Assembly: GCF_000172795.2 (NCBI RefSeq)
Contig: NZ_CP020950.1
Coordinates: 400,025 to 464,024 of the forward strand
DNA from: Rhizobium sp. CIAT894
GTDB taxonomy: Bacteria > Pseudomonadota > Alphaproteobacteria > Rhizobiales > Rhizobiaceae
DNA: 64,000 nt
Direction: 5' to 3'
In this document: in pieces, positions 18,963-55,225 of the stretch
Layout: each line of letters starts with the position of its first letter
How positions within the stretch are numbered: position 1 is the first letter of the stretch
Notes under the pieces: model-generated
What the model saw: the letters and a program-made list of their open reading frames with translations, nothing else
Databases searched by the model: none
What the model was told of the DNA's origin: nothing
Program-made: the position numbers and the translations under genes

Positions 18963-20078
<1,116 letters not shown>

Positions 20079-23618: not shown

Positions 23619-23635
23619 CTGGCACGGTTGTTGCG
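23619..23635 (+). promoter_or_regulatory. Sigma-54 (-24/-12) promoter of the metallopeptidase
   Basis: CTGGCACGGTTGTTGCG has GG and GC exactly ten bases apart and matches the RpoN consensus. The predicted start of transcription falls about 27 bases before the ATG. I did not find an exact TGT-N10-ACA site 80-150 bases upstream; a different dyad occupies that position. Confidence 0.8.
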
Positions 23636-23672: not shown

Positions 23673-24587
23673 ATGATGGATGTATGCTCGATGGGGATGG
23701 TGTTGTGCGGTGGGTACCTTCTTGCTGCATCCGCAGGCAGACTCGGCGGCGCTGAGAATGTCTTATCTGACTCGCCTTTGTCCGCGGCTGATGTATCGAG
23801 TTTCGAGACTTTCATAGTTCGCAGCCCACCGACATCACTCAATCTGGATCCATTTTATGCCAAATATGCTGACGCAGCGGGCATACCTATTATTTCGTCA
23901 AACAAGGTTCCAGACACGGCACTATTGATCTCACGTGACATTGTCCTCTACATGTTGTCAGAACGCCGTGATGTCCGCGATGCTTTAATCCAGGCTGGAG
24001 CGCGGGTGGGCGTCATGGCAATTGACGAGACGACGACTGATATTCCCGAGCAGCGGGATTGGAAGAAGCCTCTTCCCGATGATCCACGTCTCACCCCTGA
24101 CGAGCGGCGGGATTACGCCAACACGATCGGCAAGATGACTGCCCGAGACTACTGGGCACAAAGGGCGCGCGGCATGGGCGGGCTCTACACGACGGGAGCT
24201 GTGGAGAATTTGATGGGCGTGCCGGGCACGCGGTATTACGGCGGGAACATTCTTGTTCACGAATTCTCACATAATATTTTCAACGCGCTGCGCACGGTAG
24301 ATCCTGATCTCGTTGCACGAGTTGAACGTGCCTATTCGCACGCCTACGAGAAAGGCCTCTGGGCGTGTTCCTATATGGAGAACAACGTCGATGAGTATTG
24401 GGCCGAGGGCACGCGATTTTGGTTCAATACGAACTTGGCTTACAGCCGAGGCAATCTCACCATTGCCACATCAGAAGATTTCGAGGCTCACGATCCAAAC
24501 CTCTATAATATCATGGCCGAAGTCTACCGCCATGACCACCACATTCTGGCGGATGTCTATTACCGGCATTCGGCGAAGTCGCAGTAA
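23673..24587 (+). CDS. Secreted zinc metallopeptidase (HExxH), symbiotic sigma-54 regulon
   Basis: This 304-residue protein (or 303 from the second ATG, with GAGAGG before it) begins with a hydrophobic stretch, MGMVLCGGYLLAASAGRLGG, that could be a signal peptide. The zinc motif HEFSH lies in YYGGNILVHEFSHNIFNALR at about residue 194. About 46 residues downstream ENNVDEYWAEGTRFWF may supply the third zinc ligand (Glu), as in gluzincin or anthrax-lethal-factor-like peptidases. I do not recognise a named subfamily. The strong -24/-12 promoter implies expression with nitrogen fixation. Possible substrates are plant or bacterial peptides, but the sequence does not show which. Confidence 0.75.
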   Translation: MMDVCSMGMVLCGGYLLAASAGRLGGAENVLSDSPLSAADVSSFETFIVRSPPTSLNLDPFYAKYADAAGIPIISSNKVPDTALLISRDIVLYMLSERRDVRDALIQAGARVGVMAIDETTTDIPEQRDWKKPLPDDPRLTPDERRDYANTIGKMTARDYWAQRARGMGGLYTTGAVENLMGVPGTRYYGGNILVHEFSHNIFNALRTVDPDLVARVERAYSHAYEKGLWACSYMENNVDEYWAEGTRFWFNTNLAYSRGNLTIATSEDFEAHDPNLYNIMAEVYRHDHHILADVYYRHSAKSQ

Positions 24588-37683: not shown

Positions 37684-38499
37684 TCAGGGAGGCGGGCTGG
37701 TTGCGCACCCTGAATTCACCAACGAGATCGGCACCTTGTTGCCGATCGCACCATGAGGTCTTTCCTCATTGTAGTATCTACGCCAATCCTCCATCTTTTC
37801 GCGGGCATCCGCAAGGGTCAGGAACCAATGCTGGTTTAGGCATTCTGCACGGAAGCGGCCATTGAACGCTTCGATGAAGGCATTATCAGTCGGCTTGCCG
37901 GGGCGTGAGAAGTCCAACGTCACACCCTTGGAATAGGCCCGCAGGTCCAAGTCGCGCGACACGAACTCGGTCCCTTGGTCGACACGGATCGTTTTCGGAT
38001 AGCCGGCTTTTTGGCACACCCGTTCAAGGGTTTGCACAACGTCTTCGCCTCTATAGCTATGACGTGGATCAAGCACCGGCACGTAGCGCGAGAAGGTGTC
38101 GACCACCGTCAGCACGCGCAGTTTCTTACCCGTTGCGAGTTGGTCGTGAACGAAGTCCATCGCCCAGACGTCGTTGGGTCCGACGGCCATGTGCCGATCC
38201 TCGCGAAGCTTGGCTTTTACCCCCCGCTTCGGTGTCTTGTTCCGCAACTGTAGCCCCAAGTCCCTGTAAATGCGGTAGGTTCGCTTGATGTTGGTGCCCC
38301 AACCCACGCGTTCCAACAGCACATGCACGCGGCGATAGCCGTACCGCACACGGATCTCGCAGATCTCGCGAATACGACGTTCCAGACCGGCCTGATCAGC
38401 ACGGCGAGAGGTATAGTGGTGAGTTGATCGATCGAAGTTCAACGCTCCACAAGCACGTCGGATCGAGATCGCCCAATCGCAGCACATGCCTTTCACCAT
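37684..38499 (-). CDS. IS3-family transposase OrfB (copy 3)
   Basis: This is a complete 271-residue catalytic subunit with VWAMDFVHDQLATGKKLRVL, the rve-domain PTDNAFIEAFNGRFRAECLN and WRRYYNEERPHGAIGNKVPI. It matches copies 1 and 2 almost perfectly. Expression as the OrfAB fusion is impaired by the orfA deletion. Confidence 0.88.
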   Translation of the reverse strand: MVKGMCCDWAISIRRACGALNFDRSTHHYTSRRADQAGLERRIREICEIRVRYGYRRVHVLLERVGWGTNIKRTYRIYRDLGLQLRNKTPKRGVKAKLREDRHMAVGPNDVWAMDFVHDQLATGKKLRVLTVVDTFSRYVPVLDPRHSYRGEDVVQTLERVCQKAGYPKTIRVDQGTEFVSRDLDLRAYSKGVTLDFSRPGKPTDNAFIEAFNGRFRAECLNQHWFLTLADAREKMEDWRRYYNEERPHGAIGNKVPISLVNSGCATSPPP

Positions 38500-40099: not shown

Positions 40100-40115
40100 T
40101 GTCGTGCTTGCGACA
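40100..40115. promoter_or_regulatory. NifA upstream activator site of the peptide operon
   Basis: TGTCGTGCTTGCGACA is an exact TGT-N10-ACA match, 94 bases upstream of the -24/-12-like element. This distance is almost the same as at nifH (91) and the nifH remnant (87). Confidence 0.8.
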
Positions 40116-40208
40116 GCGTGATGTGCGGTTTGGCACGTCTCGGCGCTCTAGGGCAGCCATTGAATAACATACAGAACAGTTTTCTGATGCTTTTCGCTCC
40201 TTCTGCAT

Positions 40209-40223
40209 TGGCACGAATCTTGA
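40209..40223 (+). promoter_or_regulatory. Sigma-54-type promoter of the peptide operon, GG-N10-GA form
   Basis: TGGCACGAATCTTGA has the same layout as the nifH element of this plasmid (TGGCACGGGTTTTGA), including GA in place of GC at -12. The predicted leader to the precursor ATG is about 70 bases. Confidence 0.7.
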
Positions 40224-40301
40224 ACCTTTTTGTTGCGCGCCGCTAGGAGCTCCCAACGGGGGCCTTGCATCTTCTCAATCCAGCTCTGAACGGAGACACC
40301 A

Positions 40302-40427
40302 ATGATGAACAACATGGCAGCCTATCGTGTAACCGAATTAACCCCTCAAGAAGCAGCTGAAACCTCCGGAGGTTGGTATTTTTGGGTTTACTTGTTTTTG
40401 CGACGTTACGGACACTTGTTTGGTTGA
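40302..40427 (+). CDS. Double-glycine secreted peptide precursor (41 aa)
   Basis: This very small gene starts at ATG 40302 or 40305 behind a clear GGAGA site. The leader ends with the segment ELTPQEAAETSGG, matching double-glycine leaders cut by C39 peptidases: conserved E-L at the start, hydrophobic positions, and GG at residues 23-24. The mature peptide would be 17 residues, WYFWVYLFLRRYGHLFG, extremely rich in aromatic and bulky hydrophobic residues, with a central RR pair and no cysteine. The exporter genes follow 18 bases downstream. The size and sequence resemble a small unmodified microcin or a signalling peptide. No homologue is known to me. Confidence 0.8.
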   Translation: MMNNMAAYRVTELTPQEAAETSGGWYFWVYLFLRRYGHLFG

Positions 40428-40445
40428 TAAGCGAGCTGGCTCTCG

Positions 40446-41627
40446 ATGGCTCCTAGTGACTACAGACTAGCAGTTCCCCTTTCTGCTGAAACGGCCAGCT
40501 GCACCGCAGAAAGCATACTGGCGCGACGATCAGGACGATCCTTGAGCATTTATAGGGCGATCTTGCTCTTCGTCGCCGCGGCATTTGGCTCACTGCCACT
40601 CGTTACCATACCGGTCTCCATGCAGAGTGTCGGTACTATTCGCCCGATCGTGGAGAAGACGCCCCTGATAGCGCCCGTCTCCGGACGCATCTCCCGTGTC
40701 CTTGCCTTTGAGAACGATGTCGTTGCTAAGGGGAAGGAAATAATCGCCTTTGACGATCATGTAATCGAGGAAAAGCTCAGCGGGGTTTTAGCCGACATTC
40801 ATGCCAAGAGCGATCTTGCCCATGACTTCCAAACGCTGATTTCTTCCGGCGCAAGGCTCAGCGTCTCGCCCCCCCTCCAAACCGAATCCGCGATGGCTGA
40901 AAGGGTGCATTTTCTCAACTTACTGCGCGAGAACCAAAATGCGCGCAGTAACGCCGCGGCGGAACTCGACCGCGCAAAGCGACTTGTCTCGGCTGCTGCG
41001 GCGCCGGCGAAGACCGTTGACGAGAAGGCTTTCGCTCTCCAAAATATCGAGGTCCAAGGCGAGATCCTCGTGCGACGCAAAACCGCTGATTGGAACCAGA
41101 AGCTTCTTGATGCTAACCTGAGCTTAAAGGAACTCACGGCCACCTTGCATCAGCTCGAGCACGAACGGGACCTGCACCGCATCCGCGCCCCAGTATCGGG
41201 TGCTCTCGAGCAGTTCTCCGGCCTCGCGCACGGAAGCTACGTGCAGAGCGGGCAAACCGTTGGTTGGATCTCGCCGAACGACGATCTGGTGGCGGAAATC
41301 TACGTCTCCCCCAACGACATTGGCTTTGTGCAGCCTGGTCAGCCGGTGCGGCTCCAAGTGGATGCCTTTAACTACAACCAATGGGGTGTCATCAAAGCAA
41401 GGGTGGTCGAGGTGGCGCAGGACTTCACTCTGCATGACGGGAACCCGGTCTTCAAGGTCCAGTGCGCGCTCTCTCGCAGCGAACTCGCGCTGAAAAGCGG
41501 GGCCATCGGCCACCTGAAGAAAGGCATGACCGTGCGGGCTCGCTTTCTGTTGGCCAATCGCACTCTCCTGCAACTGCTCTACGACGAGGCAGACGATTGG
41601 CTCAACCCGATGCTGGCGGGGCGCTAA
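40446..41627 (+). CDS. HlyD/CvaA-type membrane fusion protein for peptide export
   Basis: This 393-residue periplasmic adaptor has a cytoplasmic N-terminus, one transmembrane helix at about residues 34-55 (AILLFVAAAFGSLPLVTIPV), a split lipoyl domain (ISRVLAFENDVVAKGKEIIA and RIRAPVSGALEQFSGLAHGS), a long coiled-coil hairpin between them and a beta-barrel domain (VRLQVDAFNYNQWGVIKARV). It would connect the ABC exporter to an outer-membrane TolC-type channel, which is not encoded nearby. It lies 18 bases after the precursor and 27 bases before the transporter, so the three form one operon. Confidence 0.9.
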   Translation: MAPSDYRLAVPLSAETASCTAESILARRSGRSLSIYRAILLFVAAAFGSLPLVTIPVSMQSVGTIRPIVEKTPLIAPVSGRISRVLAFENDVVAKGKEIIAFDDHVIEEKLSGVLADIHAKSDLAHDFQTLISSGARLSVSPPLQTESAMAERVHFLNLLRENQNARSNAAAELDRAKRLVSAAAAPAKTVDEKAFALQNIEVQGEILVRRKTADWNQKLLDANLSLKELTATLHQLEHERDLHRIRAPVSGALEQFSGLAHGSYVQSGQTVGWISPNDDLVAEIYVSPNDIGFVQPGQPVRLQVDAFNYNQWGVIKARVVEVAQDFTLHDGNPVFKVQCALSRSELALKSGAIGHLKKGMTVRARFLLANRTLLQLLYDEADDWLNPMLAGR

Positions 41628-41654
41628 TATTGTCCCAACAGCCAGCGAGCCTCC

Positions 41655-43802
41655 ATGTCTATTAAGGCCATTAAGTTCAAACAGCGTGACATCACGGATT
41701 GCGGCGCCGCCAGCCTCGCATCTGTCGCAGCCTTCTATGGCTACAAGTTGCCATTGGCGCGCATCCGCCAGTATGCGTCGACCGACCGCTCCGGTACGAG
41801 TGTGCTGGGGCTCACGGAAGCGGCGCAGAAGCTGGGCTTCATCGCGAAAGGCGTCAAAGGTGGCTTCGACAGCCTGTACAAGATCCCCAAGCCCGCTATC
41901 GCGCACGTCGTCAAGGAGGACCTGCACCATTTCGTAGTGGTCCATGCGATCGACGCCAAGTGGGTCATCGTCATGGACCCGGCCTTGGGCGAAATCTGCA
42001 AAGTGCCGCATCAGGAATTCATGGAGCAATGGACCGGCGTTCTGGTTTTGCTGGTTCCGGCAGACACATTCAATCGTCGAGACGAGACCACGTCGCCCCT
42101 CGCCCGATTCGCCCGCCTACTCGCGCCACACCGCACGGTGATGGCGCAGGCTCTCGTCGGCGCTCTTGTGACGACCGTCCTCAGTCTCTCGACGGCGATC
42201 TACGTTCAGAAGATCGTTGATCACGTGATCCCAGCGGGAAACCGCAACCTGCTCAACTTGATGAGCATCGCAATGCTGCTGATCCTAGCGATACAGATCC
42301 TGATCAACCTCCTAAGAGGCCGACTCGTCCTGCAGACGGGGCAGAAGATCGACGTATGCTTGATCCTCGGCTATTACAATCACATCCTGGCCCTGCCCCA
42401 GAAGTTCTTCGATAGCATGCGCATGGGAGAAATCGTGTCGCGCATGAACGACGCTGTGAAAATCAGGAGCTTCCTGAACGACGTTTCGATAAACATGTTT
42501 GTTGACATTTTAATGATACTGTTCTCGTTCGGAATGATGTTCATCTATTCCTGGAATATTGCTTTGATCGTGGCGCTCGCCATTCCAATGTACATCCTGG
42601 TATATTGGGCCATCAATCGGATGAATCGAAATCTCCAACGAGTCATCATGGAAAATGACGCCAAACTCGAGGCGCAACTGGTAGAATCACTCGGAGCTGT
42701 CTCCACCATTAAGACTTCCGGCGTCGAGAGCTTCGCAAACTTCAAAATGGAGACCCGCTTCGTAAAGATGCTGCATTCCGTCTACAGCTCCGGGCTGATC
42801 TCAATCTGCGGCGACAACGCCTCGACGTTGCTGTCGGTCCTGTTCACCATCGTGCTGATGTGGTTTGGAACCACGCTTGCGCTCGAACAGGCCGTCACGC
42901 CCGGCGAATTGCTGTCCTGCTATACGTTGCTTGGCTATATCACCCGGCCGGTCGCCCGCCTGATCCAGACCAACCGGATCGTTCAAGACGCGTTTATCGC
43001 GGCGGATAGACTTTTCGAGATCTTTGAACTGGAGTCGGCAAGCAGCAGCGGCATCGATGCTACGAAGACCGATCTCGGAGATATTCGCCTGGAGAACGTC
43101 ACATTCCGCTATGGCGCGCAGGCGGAGGTTTTCAGCGATCTAAGCGTCTCCTTTCGCCAAGGAGAGTTGACGGCCGTCGTGGGTGAGAGCGGCTCGGGCA
43201 AAAGCACCCTTGCGGCTCTGCTGCAGAATGTCTACCAGCTTGAGGATGGATGCATTCGGATCGGCCAATATGCCCTCCAGGATTTCTCGAGCGCATCACT
43301 GCACAAGGTCATGGCTGCAGTACCGCAATCGATAGACGTCTTCTCCGGTTCCGTGATCGAGAACATCGCCCTGGGCGAGTTCGAACCGGAGTTCGATAAG
43401 ATCGTACGCATCTGTGATCGAATAGGACTGCGGGAGTGCATCGAGCGCTGGCCCGGGCGGTTCCAGGCCTATCTGGGCGAGAACGGGGTTCGCCTCTCCG
43501 GAGGTGAGAAGCAGCGCCTCGCATTGGCTCGAGCCCTGTACCGGGATCCCGACGTTCTAATCCTTGACGAAGCGACCTCCTCTCTGGACTCGGCAGCCGA
43601 AGAATTTGTGCTGCGGGTTGTTGAGGATCTGTCTCGCGCTGGGAAGACCATCATAGTCATCACTCATCGGTTGAGCACCGTTCGTGGGGCGGACAATATT
43701 GTGGTCCTGGACAAGGGGCGGGTCATTGAGGAGGGAAAGCACGCTGACCTAGTGAGAACTGATGGCCCTTACGCTCGATTATGGCGGGCGCCAAGGTCGT
43801 GA
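41655..43802 (+). CDS. C39-peptidase ABC exporter (bacteriocin-type)
   Basis: This 715-residue protein combines leader peptidase and transporter. The N-terminal C39 domain has the catalytic Cys in QRDITDCGAASLASVAAFYG and the catalytic His in LHHFVVVHAIDAKWVIVMDP. A six-helix membrane domain follows (about residues 160-440), then an ABC domain with Walker A GESGSGKST, signature LSGGEKQRLALARAL, Walker B VLILDEATSSLD and the H-loop ITHRL. All catalytic residues are present, so it should cut a double-glycine leader and export the core. The start at 41655 follows GAGCC; the family N-terminus begins at MSIKAIKFKQ. Confidence 0.95.
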   Translation: MSIKAIKFKQRDITDCGAASLASVAAFYGYKLPLARIRQYASTDRSGTSVLGLTEAAQKLGFIAKGVKGGFDSLYKIPKPAIAHVVKEDLHHFVVVHAIDAKWVIVMDPALGEICKVPHQEFMEQWTGVLVLLVPADTFNRRDETTSPLARFARLLAPHRTVMAQALVGALVTTVLSLSTAIYVQKIVDHVIPAGNRNLLNLMSIAMLLILAIQILINLLRGRLVLQTGQKIDVCLILGYYNHILALPQKFFDSMRMGEIVSRMNDAVKIRSFLNDVSINMFVDILMILFSFGMMFIYSWNIALIVALAIPMYILVYWAINRMNRNLQRVIMENDAKLEAQLVESLGAVSTIKTSGVESFANFKMETRFVKMLHSVYSSGLISICGDNASTLLSVLFTIVLMWFGTTLALEQAVTPGELLSCYTLLGYITRPVARLIQTNRIVQDAFIAADRLFEIFELESASSSGIDATKTDLGDIRLENVTFRYGAQAEVFSDLSVSFRQGELTAVVGESGSGKSTLAALLQNVYQLEDGCIRIGQYALQDFSSASLHKVMAAVPQSIDVFSGSVIENIALGEFEPEFDKIVRICDRIGLRECIERWPGRFQAYLGENGVRLSGGEKQRLALARALYRDPDVLILDEATSSLDSAAEEFVLRVVEDLSRAGKTIIVITHRLSTVRGADNIVVLDKGRVIEEGKHADLVRTDGPYARLWRAPRS

Positions 43803-43904: not shown

Positions 43905-44394
43905 GGAACGTCTGGGCGATGGACTCGTTCACGACCAACTCGCAACGGGTAAGAAACTGCGCGTGCTGACGGTGGTCGACACCTTCTCGCGCTACGTGCC
44001 GGTGCTTGATCCACGTCATAGCTATAGAGGCGAAGACGTTGTGCAAACCCTTGAACGGGTGTGCCAAAAAGCCGGCTATCCGAAAACGATCCGTGTCGAC
44101 CAAGGGATGGAATTCGTGTCGCGCGACTTGGACCTGTGGGCCTATTCCAAGGGCGTGACGTTGGACTTCTCACGCCCCGGCAAGCCAACTGATAATGCCT
44201 TCATCGAAGCGTTCAATGGCCGCTTCCGTGCAGAATGCCTGAACCAGCATTGGTTCCTGACCCTTGCGGATGCCCGCGAAAAGATGGAGGATTGGCGTAG
44301 ATACTACAATGAGGAAAGACCTCATGGTGCGATCGGCAACAAGGTGCCGATCTCGTTGGTGAATTCAGGGTGCGCAACCAGCCCGCCTCCCTGA
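43905..44394 (+). pseudogene. IS3-family orfB C-terminal fragment (copy 5)
   Basis: The frame encodes the second half of the DDE domain (VDTFSRYVPVLDPRHSYRGE to EERPHGAIGNKVPISLVNSG). The HTH part, the first catalytic region and orfA are missing. Confidence 0.85.
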
Positions 44395-51901: not shown

Positions 51902-53170
51902 ATGAATACCCCTGATTGGCTTTCGACACCGCAGGACGTGCATGTAGCCAGTCAGACGCTACAGGCCCTCGTCACAAGTGAACTTTCGAAACGAGTCGTC
52001 TCGGAAAACGAAATTAAAACGATCTATCTGTTTCTAACCCGCAAGTGCAATTTGGGATGCCACCACTGTTACATCGCAGGCGTCGGGTCCAAGGCCAAGG
52101 GCATTGATTTCAACCTTGAGACGATCCAAGGACTGATCGAGCAAGCACTACCCAATGGGCTGCGCAAGGTTAAGGTTTCCGGGGGTGAACCGATGGTTCA
52201 CAAGGAATTCATGGCAGTCATGGAATACCTCGCATCCTGTGGGCTGAAGGAGCTGGTTTTCGAGACGAATGGAACCCTCTTTGACGAGTTCACGATCGAG
52301 CAGCTAAGTAGGCTCCCCAATTTGACGGTCTTCATCAGCCTCGACCATTTCGACCCAGAGGCGCACGACGCTTTCAGAGCAAAATCGGGTGCGTTCGCCA
52401 AGACTGCGATTGTCCTGCAGCGGCTTGGAAAAACTGACATCTCTACGGTGGTAACGACGACTGCCTATCGCAACAACTATGACAAGGTGATTTCGATTAT
52501 AGATTTGGTGCTCGGCTGGGGCATCAAAAAGCATCGGACGCTGCTCAACATACATCCGATGGGCAACGCGCGCAGCCATGAGGACAATGCGATAAGCTTG
52601 GAGGAATGCGAGCTACTGATAGGCGATCTTTTGAAATCTCCCCATTTTGAGAGTGGCGCTGCATACATGACTCTGCCGCCGGCTCTGATGCCTCTCAAGT
52701 ATCTGAACGGCGTGCATACTTGCGGTTGGGGCGACAACGTACTGGGCATACTGTCGAACGGACAAGTTTCGATGTGCAGTGCCTCCTACGATGATCCGGA
52801 AATGATCGCCGGCAATGCCTTCGAAATGCCCTTGATGGAAATCTGGCGCAACAGCCCGTTCTTCCATGAGCTACGCGAGGTGGTGAGTGGCGAGGTTAAG
52901 GGCGTCTGCGGCAACTGCGTGTTTTATCCAGTCTGTCGCGGCGTCTGCAAGATGAGTAGCTGGTCGCACTATGGTGAAAAGGACGCGCCCTATCCGCTGT
53001 GCCAGGAACTTTACAATAACGGAGGTTTTCCGGAGTACGCTCTGGTGGACCCGACGAAAGATTCCACCTACCGCCGCGGAGTTATAGCAAAAGAGCGTCG
53101 GCCCGCCGCCGAAGCTCCTGTCTATAACTTCTCGGAGGAAATCGCGGCTGCTGCGCAAAACACTCACTAA
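51902..53170 (+). CDS. Radical SAM/SPASM domain protein
   Basis: This 422-residue enzyme has the 4Fe-4S SAM motif CX3CX2C in FLTRKCNLGCHHCYIAG, the GGEP-type motif in KVSGGEPMVHKEF and a C-terminal SPASM domain with a cysteine series including MCSASYDD, GVCGNCVFYPVCRGVCKM and PLCQELY. SPASM proteins often modify ribosomal peptides (PqqE, AlbA, sactipeptide and ranthipeptide maturases), but some act on other substrates. A GGAGG site precedes the ATG at 51902, 31 bases after the Apt stop. No small precursor peptide is obvious next to it; the two small unknown proteins downstream are candidates for partners or substrates. Confidence 0.9.
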   Translation: MNTPDWLSTPQDVHVASQTLQALVTSELSKRVVSENEIKTIYLFLTRKCNLGCHHCYIAGVGSKAKGIDFNLETIQGLIEQALPNGLRKVKVSGGEPMVHKEFMAVMEYLASCGLKELVFETNGTLFDEFTIEQLSRLPNLTVFISLDHFDPEAHDAFRAKSGAFAKTAIVLQRLGKTDISTVVTTTAYRNNYDKVISIIDLVLGWGIKKHRTLLNIHPMGNARSHEDNAISLEECELLIGDLLKSPHFESGAAYMTLPPALMPLKYLNGVHTCGWGDNVLGILSNGQVSMCSASYDDPEMIAGNAFEMPLMEIWRNSPFFHELREVVSGEVKGVCGNCVFYPVCRGVCKMSSWSHYGEKDAPYPLCQELYNNGGFPEYALVDPTKDSTYRRGVIAKERRPAAEAPVYNFSEEIAAAAQNTH

Positions 53171-54109: not shown

Positions 54110-55225
54110 ATGCTTCGGTTGTCACCAGAAGACTCTATTTTGCTGATCACCTGCCGGGCCTACCTACGACCCGAGGATGAAGAGCGTTTGGTCCGTCTCT
54201 GCAAGGAGCCTGTCAACTGGCCCTATGTGGTATGGCGCGCCGAGCATAATCGGACGGTGCCGCTGCTTGAGAATCACTTGCGCCGCCTCGATTTGTTGAC
54301 ACTATTGCCCACTGAGGCGGCGCATTACGTTCAGTGCTGGACTGTCATGTCAAAGGTCAGGTCCGCACTCGAATTTCGCAATCTGCCAGAAATCATGGAT
54401 GCGCTGGATCGGGCCGGCATCGCCTGGTTCCTGGTGAAGGGACCAGATCTCGCGCTTCTCCACTATCCCGATCCACTCCTACGGCCGATGACCGATCTCG
54501 ACATCATGGTCAAGCCCGCTGACGCGCAGCGCGTGCAGCGGCTCATGTTCGATCTCGGCTACCGGCACGGTATTTTCGATCCTTCAAATGGCAACTGGCA
54601 TCCGGAACGAAAGGAACTCGATGACGAAACCTTCCGCGAAAGCTATTCCTTGCCGGTGTTTGTAAGGATAGAATCCGTTGAATCTCCGTTCCCTGGTCCC
54701 GCGGTGCCACGCCAGCTGCGCTACCGCCACGTAAAGGGATACATCGATTCCGCGAAGAAGCTGCACATGCCCATCTTCATTGATATGCATGTAAATCTCT
54801 CCGTCGGCATCGATGTCGAAGACATATGGTCAGGCGTGCGTCTTGCAAACGGTCTAGGCCGCATATTGCAGGTCCAATCCGCGACTGGCGCCGTCTGGTT
54901 CCTTTCGGCCAGGCTTTATCACGAGGCCTTCCTTTATAATTCGCTTCGACTATTGATGTTCGGCGATCTTCATGCGGTTCTACACAAAGAAATGGCGAAT
55001 ATTAGCTGGGCGGAGGTCGCTGCGATAGGTTACAAATACGAGATGAGGCCGGCGTTATATTTCGTCCTGACGCAGATGAAGCGCATCTGTGGGATAGACA
55101 TACCGTCCGAGTTCCTAGAGCTCATTCGACCTGATCAAACCGAGGTACCACTTCAACATGATTGGGGCGACGTGTTGCCCAAACTGCTGTCTATTCCCAC
55201 TGTTAACGATCTTGAGCTGGCGTAA
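54110..55225 (+). CDS. Putative nucleotidyltransferase (NTP_transf_5-like)
   Basis: This 371-residue protein contains the family hallmark WFLVKGPDLALLHYPDPLLR followed by PMTDLDIMVKPADAQRVQRL, where the D-x-D of DLDIMV is the metal-binding pair of polymerase-beta-type nucleotidyltransferases. A later Asp (IFIDMHVNLS) may be the third acidic residue. Such proteins occur in peptide, capsule and antibiotic loci but have mostly unknown acceptors. The start at 54110 follows a GGAG site. It is the fifth gene of the run, and PRPP synthetase follows after two bases. Confidence 0.75.
   Translation: MLRLSPEDSILLITCRAYLRPEDEERLVRLCKEPVNWPYVVWRAEHNRTVPLLENHLRRLDLLTLLPTEAAHYVQCWTVMSKVRSALEFRNLPEIMDALDRAGIAWFLVKGPDLALLHYPDPLLRPMTDLDIMVKPADAQRVQRLMFDLGYRHGIFDPSNGNWHPERKELDDETFRESYSLPVFVRIESVESPFPGPAVPRQLRYRHVKGYIDSAKKLHMPIFIDMHVNLSVGIDVEDIWSGVRLANGLGRILQVQSATGAVWFLSARLYHEAFLYNSLRLLMFGDLHAVLHKEMANISWAEVAAIGYKYEMRPALYFVLTQMKRICGIDIPSEFLELIRPDQTEVPLQHDWGDVLPKLLSIPTVNDLELA

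Follow-up and report, generated by a model that had tools for sequence, protein, structure and literature searches.

Based on the analysis of a 64-kb window (the whole stretch of DNA studied), we describe an operon in which a peptide gene with a double-glycine (GG) leader is followed by the genes of its own processing exporter, under predicted NifA/sigma-54 control. The operon very probably forms a nodule-stage secreted-peptide system, and we find it rather probable that the released core works on membranes at the interface between bacteroid and host. It is quite possible that the main target is the host or symbiosome side, and such an aim appears more likely than that of a classical microcin. 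The features of the locus are as follows.

40100..40115, + strand: TGT-N10-ACA site TGTCGTGCTTGCGACA, predicted NifA-type upstream activating site; TGT and ACA do not vary among 12 aligned upstream regions, hand-chosen from loci having a site
40158..40170, + strand: island CATTGAATAACAT between activator site and promoter, conserved in the alignment of upstream regions
40209..40224, + strand: sigma-54-type -24/-12 element TGGCACGAATCTTGAA, found by pattern match and kept in relatives
40292..40296, + strand: GGAGA, probable ribosome-binding site; an AAGGAGA-like block is kept among relatives
40302..40427, + strand: precursor peptide gene, 41 codons (40 from the second ATG, 40305), from the ORF and family alignment
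40305..40373, + strand: leader MNNMAAYRVTELTPQEAAETSGG, with residues invariant in 33 aligned precursors
40374..40424, + strand: predicted exported core WYFWVYLFLRRYGHLFG, 17 residues, from the ORF and core comparison
40446..41627, + strand: HlyD-type periplasmic adaptor, from the first possible start (PF13437, 63.1 bits)
41655..43802, + strand: C39-peptidase ABC exporter (PF03412, PF00664, PF00005; alignment with PDB 4ry2)
18963..20012, - strand: nifH (TIGR01287, 449 bits), the internal yardstick, with its own control region at 19930-20051

The sequence-only reading had reported an exact activator site and, 94 bases on, a -24/-12 element; both were found in place, with the start of TGGCACGAATCTTGAA 94 bases past the TGTCGTGCTTGCGACA site. 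The 41-codon GG-leader gene is also present and is annotated with this length in CFN42, but relatives favour the second ATG. The adaptor start in CFN42 RefSeq lies further in than the first possible one, and the gap between precursor and adaptor is 18 bases when counted to the first adaptor start in the window, and 114 in CFN42 with the RefSeq start. The adaptor and exporter claimed by that reading were confirmed as ORFs with Pfam domains (HlyD_3 in the adaptor; Peptidase_C39, 110.9 bits, ABC_membrane and ABC_tran in the exporter). The catalytic Cys16, His92 and Asp108 are invariant across seven aligned exporters; the Cys-His-Asp set and the membrane and ATPase domains of a C39 transporter are all present. 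Exporter residues 6-712 align with PDB 4ry2 (E 1.8e-145), which we take to be PCAT1; unlike that transporter, the exporter adjoins an HlyD adaptor and occurs in a Gram-negative symbiont. A Nif11/NHLP-type RiPP was rejected: the precursors gave no such match, and exporter and adaptor scored far under the NHLP cut-offs. The gene nifA was found on the same replicon as the operon.

In the window, TGT-N10-ACA occurs 7 times against 8.1 expected, and TGGCAC-N5-TTG 3 times against 0.48 expected, a count reached in 0 of 100 shuffles. One of these three matches belongs to nifH, with a TTGAA end as at the operon and a TGT-N10-ACA site (20036-20051) at similar spacing, which bears out the nifH-like control geometry proposed earlier. 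A lone chance motif was rejected as an explanation, as TGT-N10-ACA, though no commoner in the window than chance predicts, is conserved among relatives; the operon's control elements are clear of chance because they are kept there. The sigma-54-type element lies in 49 of 50 distinct regions upstream of precursors by a loose pattern and in 45 by a strict one, compared with 12 and 5 of 218 control genes. Together with a NifA-type site it was found in 34 (loose) or 32 (strict) of the 50 regions and, by the loose pattern, in none of the 218 controls. Because the 50 regions are mutually related, and in tandem pairs (e.g., L033, L037, L059, L075) the second precursor uses the promoter of the first, shuffle rates should not be read as p-values. 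The regex for the leader that yielded this set missed at least two known precursors (L030:5001, L072:4330). The exact TGT-N10-ACA is absent at the tested spacing from 16 of the 50 regions, and among the 49 loose promoter matches at least L069:9017 and L082 look poor. Among 28 precursors from the genome search (28 of 30 loci counted, with L132 read on the wrong strand), 10 are without the strict element and 14 do not carry the two elements together, distant ones (L134, L142, L147) included. Canonical sigma-54 promoters have TTGC, with GC at -12; the operon promoter does not, and its TTGA end is shared by the nifH of the window and by 41 of 49 family sites. Both control elements also precede two precursors (L128, L145) that lie 30 kb or more from every adaptor detected, and a precursor downstream of an exporter (L140) carries its own pair. 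A conserved -24/-12 element with an upstream TGT-N10-ACA, typical of the NifA-RpoN regulon, is common to the operon and nifH; the operon differs in its product, a predicted secreted peptide. We infer that the operon is under NifA/sigma-54 control.

The precursors combine a fixed leader with a changing core. In a hand-chosen set of 33 aligned precursors, M1, E16, A17, G22 and G23 of the leader are invariant, and mean pairwise identity (528 pairs) is 0.68 for the leader versus 0.23 for the core. Pooled pN/pS, hand-summed over 12 hand-chosen comparisons, is about 0.17 for the leader and about 0.8 for the core. Relatives usually encode one or two hydrophobic, class-IIb-like peptides of about 30 residues; strongly hydrophobic cores with small-residue spacing make up 25 of the 33. 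Tandem precursor pairs occur, for instance, at L030 and the four loci named above, and one Bradyrhizobium genome has up to 11 precursor matches. Strict hypervariability of the core was rejected, as two core types recur across genera (rough regex classes, with one NXC14 precursor 2 filed as type 1). The window core has 17 residues versus 23-40 in the other 32 precursors. It is not uniquely short: relatives outside this set have cores of 4 (L063, L065), 13 (L058, P0046) and 17 residues (P0028, P0037, P0044), some of which are probably cut genes. Judging from the alignment, the aromatic core of the window is an odd, derived member of the family. A family profile search of the window's genome gave no other family precursor at E<=10.

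Adaptor relatives were collected with two peptide patterns taken from rhizobial sequences, and the best 80 of 343 were kept. Among these, 43 rhizobial loci at 51-99% identity, from Rhizobium, Sinorhizobium, Mesorhizobium and Bradyrhizobium species that we take to be nodulators, are followed by 36 others at 31-38%. Microvirga also has the cassette. An organism name was available for 33 of 55 precursor homologues from a protein search relying on shared 5-residue words, and all 33 belong to rhizobial genera. The precursor family is thus, as far as this survey reaches, large and confined to rhizobial genera. The precursor search proposed earlier has two outcomes: relatives of the 17-residue core, for which no described homologue had been claimed, were found only in the bean lineage, while the leader family is large. 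Loss of the small ORF from relatives that keep the exporter, named earlier as an argument against the reading, was not what we saw; such relatives retain a small ORF, and it carries this leader. At L070 and L071, no precursor was seen in the 303 bases available upstream of the adaptor. NodC was sought in genus samples of Rhizobium and Bradyrhizobium: 26 of 30 adaptor-bearing Rhizobium genomes have it and the remaining four have nifH, and it is present in 11 of 12 adaptor-bearing Bradyrhizobium, from a sample that includes, besides its centre, five genomes in which the adaptor had been found beforehand (G063, G065, G066, G067, G069). Many NodC-positive genomes lack the operon (35 of 61 in Rhizobium, 94 of 105 in Bradyrhizobium), and it is therefore not needed for symbiosis. 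The tree left out 2 of 36 rows (L032 and L066, with unsuitable ORFs), and 12 of its 30 inner forks are unsupported.

Based on these data, we suggest the following mechanism. In oxygen-poor, nitrogen-fixing bacteroids, NifA bound to TGT-N10-ACA would switch on sigma-54 polymerase at the -24/-12 element, and precursor, adaptor and exporter would all come from one transcript. Cleavage behind GG would be the task of the C39 domain, and the ABC-HlyD pair, joined by a TolC-type outer channel as the usual partner of such pairs, would set the core free into the symbiosome space. Across the family, the leader stays fixed while the core changes, mostly as one or two hydrophobic helices of about 30 residues; the bean lineage would have kept the exporter, lost this usual content and arrived at a derived 17-residue, aromatic and cationic core. 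The core is predicted to act on membranes at the symbiosome membrane or space, and not as a classical immunity-coupled bacteriocin. Anatomy, conservation, distribution, control motifs and catalytic residues can be read directly from the sequences; NifA dependence, cleavage, export and membrane action are inferred.

A rather doubtful alternative is a class II microcin or class IIb two-peptide bacteriocin that bacteroids would use on competing rhizobia or on intruders in the nodule; immunity would then be encoded elsewhere or come from the exporter. TIGR03949 (lactobin A/cerein 7B) matches 9 of the 33 precursors at E<=1 (best 7.6e-06), and L030:5001, the one of five rescanned that matches at E<=0.01, lies above its cut-off; these class IIb scores of some cores favour a bacterial target. 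The tandem pairs, the two recurring core types, the hydrophobic cores with small-residue spacing, the fast core change and the name 'bacteriocin ABC transporter' among those deposited for relatives point the same way. However, the window precursor matches no bacteriocin model, predicted expression is tied to nitrogen fixation, when the compartment would have few competitors, and a comparison of 27 loci brought up no conserved immunity gene (extra ORFs of at least 35 aa, E<=1e-6; smaller or fast-evolving genes could escape). The gap in the window is short as well; at several Bradyrhizobium and Mesorhizobium loci (e.g., L066, L069) it spans some hundreds of bases, which could hide a fast-evolving immunity gene. 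The label 'microcin-like' given earlier thus fits insofar as some of the relatives resemble class IIb bacteriocins by score, but not with respect to immunity. The accompanying observation that neither an immunity gene nor a modifying enzyme is visible held in the 27 loci, where none is conserved beside the cassette; a radical SAM gene at 51902, considered as a modifying enzyme, has no counterpart there. A peptide signal between bacteroids, as a quorum or developmental cue, is very unlikely: C39 exporters also release pheromones, and ComA is among the exporter's nearest solved structures, but the 27 loci have neither a kinase nor a receptor gene conserved beside the cassette, and the core varies too much for one common receptor. 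Least probable of all is that the 41-codon ORF is fortuitous and the exporter's true substrate is another peptide. Our profile and regex searches detect this leader alone; against this, five genera have the leader immediately before the adaptor, and the window's genome yielded no second family member.

It is also unlikely, though less so than a signal, that the bean-lineage peptide is a decaying remnant, in which recombination between tandem leaders deleted precursor 1, the core was shortened and the operon is disappearing. In favour of decay is the uneven resemblance of the gene to precursors 1 and 2 of related plasmids. Compared with NXC14, the window 5' UTR matches precursor 1 at 85 of 105 positions and precursor 2 at 60, while the leader matches precursor 2 at 60 of 69, that of R. 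mesoamericanum at 62 and NXC14 precursor 1 at 54. Only the last ~14 bases of the core, to the stop, resemble precursor 2, which 27 and 25 of 500 shuffles equalled. A precursor-1 core with a precursor-2 tail was rejected, as the leader proved closer to precursor 2; the alignments suggest, with modest confidence, a precursor-1 5' UTR, a precursor-2 leader and a largely new or cut-down core. Furthermore, NXC14 still has two precursors, although with an exporter ORF shortened to 98 residues, R. mesoamericanum has lost precursor 1 by another route, and the other short, possibly cut cores fit decay too. On the other hand, the 41-residue ORF matches end to end in 38 of 73 plasmid records (35 at >=99%, 3 at 90-98%); among 61 genomes it does so in 8, the window's own included. 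No amino-acid change was found in the leader in three bean-lineage comparisons, exporter dN/dS of 0.15 and 0.26 (from the 12 hand-chosen comparisons) indicates purifying selection, and the control elements are kept. It should be noted that intactness is weak evidence of constraint because the plasmids are close kin.

Class IIb bacteriocins share with the operon a GG leader, a dedicated C39-ABC exporter and an accessory protein, and many rhizobial relatives likewise have paired hydrophobic cores of about 30 residues with small-residue spacing. They differ in that the window's genome has a single precursor, not two complementary peptides, with an aromatic core of 17 residues and no TIGR03949 match; the rhizobial operon has a nif-type promoter, lacks a conserved adjacent immunity gene and, in this survey, is confined to rhizobial genera. 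A GG leader, a C39-ABC exporter and an HlyD adaptor in a Gram-negative host, all of which are found here, also characterize the class II microcins of Enterobacteriaceae (microcin V type); unlike them, the rhizobial operon has no visible cognate immunity gene, and its leader is worded differently. Rhizobia also secrete bacteriocins (trifolitoxin, RTX-type with Rzc, BltDE). Trifolitoxin is a modified peptide; the operon would produce a GG-leader peptide and has no visible modifying enzyme.

Among the papers found by literature searches, none describes the peptide family in its title or abstract opening; Gonzalez 2003, reportedly on p42d, and Salazar 2010, said to cover the R. etli NifA-RpoN regulon, may list the operon, and Dirix 2004 is reportedly a GG-peptide screen in Gram-negatives.

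In the symbiosome compartment, plant peptides act on bacteroids. If our reading is true, rhizobia would time peptide export to nitrogen fixation in that same setting; secreted peptides would then form a further, testable layer of symbiosis for the symbionts of bean, soybean and other legumes, and the natural cores behind one shared leader would offer a set for side-by-side testing. It is conceivable, though doubtful, that nitrogen-fixing bacteroids use a family of nif-regulated secreted peptides to target the plant side of the symbiosome, as a bacterial counterpart to the plant's nodule peptides, and the same doubt applies to the additions that cores diversify between lineages and that the system travels with the plasmids and islands of symbiosis. 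Should the target be bacterial instead, the operon would be a nif-gated competition system, bearing on inoculant success.

The main texts of the M. loti R7A regulon paper (HlyD, bacteriocin, microcin) and of the alphaproteobacterial NifA reconstruction (HlyD, bacteriocin) do not mention these terms. The passages of PMC2275737 on rhizobial bacteriocins name no NifA-controlled GG-leader peptide; they liken BltDE to bacteriocin/lantibiotic exporters and mention similar proteins in R. etli and, as candidate substrates of BltDE, proteins of 179-184 kDa. In B. japonicum, plasmid-borne HlyD and HlyB genes have been described as efflux genes (PMC11218460), and these may be the exporter presented here.

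Inspection of the window located every element that the sequence-only reading had proposed, namely the NifA-type TGT-N10-ACA activator site (40100–40115), the sigma-54-type −24/−12 element (40209–40224), and the plus-strand genes for a 41-codon double-glycine-leader precursor (40302–40427), an adaptor (40446–41627) and an exporter (41655–43802). Based on Pfam annotation, the adaptor belongs to the HlyD family and the exporter to the C39-ABC family. PDB entry 4ry2 aligned with exporter residues 6–712 of 715, and Cys16, His92 and Asp108 were invariant in an alignment of seven family members. The precursor had no match to any Pfam or NCBIfam model. It is separated from the first possible adaptor start by 18 bases, or by 114 bases if the RefSeq adaptor start in R. 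etli CFN42 is used. On plasmid p42d of CFN42, the precursor ORF, annotated as a hypothetical protein, adjoins HlyD and peptidase-domain ABC genes, and a NifX-associated gene and nolL lie downstream. In the window, the operon is flanked by two transposase-like ORFs, near-identical by eye:

37684–38499, minus strand, transposase-like ORF
43963–44394, plus strand, transposase-like ORF starting 161 bases past the exporter stop

A leader regular expression gathered 74 precursor rows from the window and 53 loci around adaptor or precursor matches in relatives (L handles), giving 50 distinct upstream regions. A loose −24/−12 element was present in 49 of them, compared with 5.8% of mononucleotide shuffles and 12 of 218 control regions, which were taken from in front of other ORFs, 120 aa or longer, in these loci and in the window. 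The loose element with TGT-N10-ACA 40–200 bases further upstream was found in 34 of the 50 regions (0.14% of mononucleotide shuffles, 0/218 controls). The strict −24/−12 pattern occurred at 45/50 precursors versus 5/218 controls, and together with the activator site at 32/50; the corresponding counts for precursors from the genome search were 18/28 and 14/28. Across 12 divergent upstream regions chosen for alignment, TGT, ACA, TGGCA and TTG were invariant, and a third island (CATTGAATAACAT, window 40158–40170) was conserved between activator site and promoter. The −12 end was TTGA in 41 of the 49 family sites, the same form as at nifH of the window. At L063, L066 and L073 each precursor has a separate promoter element. 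Both control elements were carried by L128, where the nearest adaptor on the plasmid is 59 kb away, and by L145, on a contig without an adaptor match; neither was found at the distant precursors L134, L142 and L147. Such sequences strongly suggest that a rhizobial nif-type promoter drives a GG-leader peptide together with its own C39 exporter.

The position of the island at 40158–40170 would suit a bending protein such as IHF, but its sequence departs from the IHF consensus. A further TGGCAC-N5-TTG element (TGGCACGGTTGTTGCG) was found at 23620–23633 (+), about 40 bases before ORF 23673–24587, which had no NCBIfam match at 1e-10 and is a candidate for another sigma-54 gene.

In a tblastn search with the 41-residue precursor (E ≤ 10), which the earlier reading had suggested, 73 plasmid records matched (42 from Rhizobium, 18 from Bradyrhizobium, 6 each from Sinorhizobium and Mesorhizobium and 1 from Microvirga), 35 of them at no less than 99% identity. 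At E ≤ 1, 18 of 61 genomes contained matches: eight at 98–100%, including the window's own, nine weak, and one (G001) confined to the leader. There was one match in the window's genome and 1 to 11 in 12 other chosen genomes, some of the latter broken by a stop. Among 55 homologous proteins of this precursor family, an organism name was shown for 33, and all 33 belonged to rhizobial genera. The adaptor-alignment scan, with one genome per species, kept 79 loci among the best 80 of 343 relatives. Of these, 43 (L040–L082) were from Rhizobium, Sinorhizobium/Ensifer, Mesorhizobium or Bradyrhizobium (adaptor identity 51–99%), and the remaining 36 were from Bacteroidota or delta-type bacteria (31–38%). 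In a tree of 34 adaptors, the 27 rhizobial rows were joined with support of 100/100, and bean Rhizobium stood beside Sinorhizobium americanum, away from R. tibeticum and R. mongolense. This pattern is as would be expected of genes travelling with symbiosis plasmids and islands.

The 6.66-Mb genome has nifHDK inside the window and, on the same contig (C4), nodC at 397293, just left of the window, and nifA at 350526. The matches listed in a DNA search (40 of 79) pointed to the bean-Rhizobium symbiotic plasmid (R. etli/phaseoli group). A 4.1-kb query was held to at least 80% in one place in 60 of the 79 matching plasmid records, and the best place was at least 99% identical in 35. Among 148 Rhizobium genomes, 30 had the adaptor, 61 had NodC above cut-off and 26 had both (Fisher p 2.4e-8, a value that ignores relatedness). 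All four adaptor-positive, NodC-negative genomes (G263, G271, G303 and G327) contained nifH, which in two of them shares a contig with the adaptor. Among 195 Bradyrhizobium genomes, the counts were 12, 105 and 11, and the sole adaptor-positive genome without NodC (G069) was that of B. aeschynomenes (L082), whose group nodulates without Nod factors. The adaptor was absent from 35 NodC-positive Rhizobium and 94 NodC-positive Bradyrhizobium, which counts against the operon being necessary.

Alignment of 33 chosen precursors gave the leader consensus MKxDMSAYGVTELTPEEASATSGG, with M1, E16, A17, G22 and G23 invariant. Mean pairwise identity over 528 pairs was 0.68 for leaders versus 0.23 for cores, and pooled pN/pS, summed by hand over 12 comparisons (one between paralogues), was about 0.17 for leaders and about 0.8 for cores. 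Of the 33 cores, 25 contain a run of 19 residues whose mean hydropathy exceeds 1.5. Cores of two types are found repeatedly in different genera (e.g., VFWAIAFAVLGLLGLAAVSIAAKAADRHH and LFWGVVWAAVTLLAFVAATIAEGVVRDKIQG, which are neighbours in Mesorhizobium temperatum), and those of a third group are rich in Cys and Pro. A second class of core, with 2–4 cysteines, follows the same leader at L062:719, L068:4398, L069:4247, L072:4330 and L057:9571, and most of these precursors have a promoter element of the family type. On B. japonicum pS11L-2 (L036, 4983–9138), three tandem precursors with the same leader and three different cores are separated by IS3-type elements, which suggests that their duplication is linked to IS activity. 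The exporter ORF was short or split in R. sp. NXC14 (L037/L153) and on pUSDA94-1 of B. elkanii USDA 94 (L031), with the precursors kept and the adaptor recognisable. Two open frames, of 347 residues (G064:C59:72251) and 203 residues (G064:C93:16570), contain leader-like matches and possibly encode larger proteins with the family leader.

The window core, WYFWVYLFLRRYGHLFG, has 17 residues, compared with 23–40 in the other 32 aligned cores, and by eye resembles none of the other classified cores apart from bean-lineage variants. The window 5′ UTR is nearest to precursor 1 of the tandem pair in R. sp. NXC14 (85/105 versus 60/105 for precursor 2), while the leader is nearest to precursor 2 (60 of 69 for NXC14 and 62 of 69 for R. 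mesoamericanum, versus 54 for NXC14 precursor 1). In the core region, likeness to precursor 2 is limited to the last ~14 bases before the stop and was equalled by 27 and 25 of 500 shuffles. We infer that precursor 1 may have been lost by recombination between tandem leaders, after which the core was replaced or shortened. Compared with IE4803, the window core has seven non-synonymous and one synonymous change and the leader zero and one; the comparisons with R. lentis and R. acidisoli gave one of each in the core. The bean exporter is under purifying selection (ABC dN/dS 0.26 and 0.15; HlyD 0.23 and 0.45), and the operon therefore does not appear to have been abandoned.

When all ORFs of at least 35 aa from 27 loci were compared with one another (E ≤ 1e-6), the precursor, adaptor and exporter alone were common to all loci, and there was no conserved immunity gene. 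Other widely shared frames overlapped one of the three genes or the control region; of the genes that lie apart from these, the most widely shared were transposases (five and four loci). Given this result, the timing and the restriction to symbionts, we tentatively favour the host/symbiosome side as the target of the peptide. Action on bacteria, for which the class-IIb-like precursor pairs speak, seems somewhat less likely. The precursor runs into the first possible adaptor start or ends no more than 7 bases before it at L030, L033, L037 and L038; at L066 and L069 the gap of some hundreds of bases leaves room for a fast-evolving immunity gene.

Searches of the available literature listed no paper describing the peptide family. 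The available portions of PMC3538637, PMC6421345, PMC13098155, PMC9611204, PMC6280393, PMC11218460 and PMC2275737 report no such peptide operon, and a term search of the accessible part of PMC4999443 gave nothing on one. The plasmid HlyD/HlyB genes of B. japonicum (PMC11218460) and the bacteriocin-type exporters named in R. etli (PMC2275737) may be kin. Since the R. etli NifA-RpoN regulon comprises 120 genes according to PMC9611204, the operon may already be among them.

Elsewhere in the window, a Radical SAM/SPASM ORF (51902–53170, +) had ScmF of the SynChlorMet cassette as its best NCBIfam match (6.1e-50, below cut-off). It is followed by ORF 54110–55225, which has no NCBIfam match, and the two possibly represent a second peptide pathway encoded by this plasmid.
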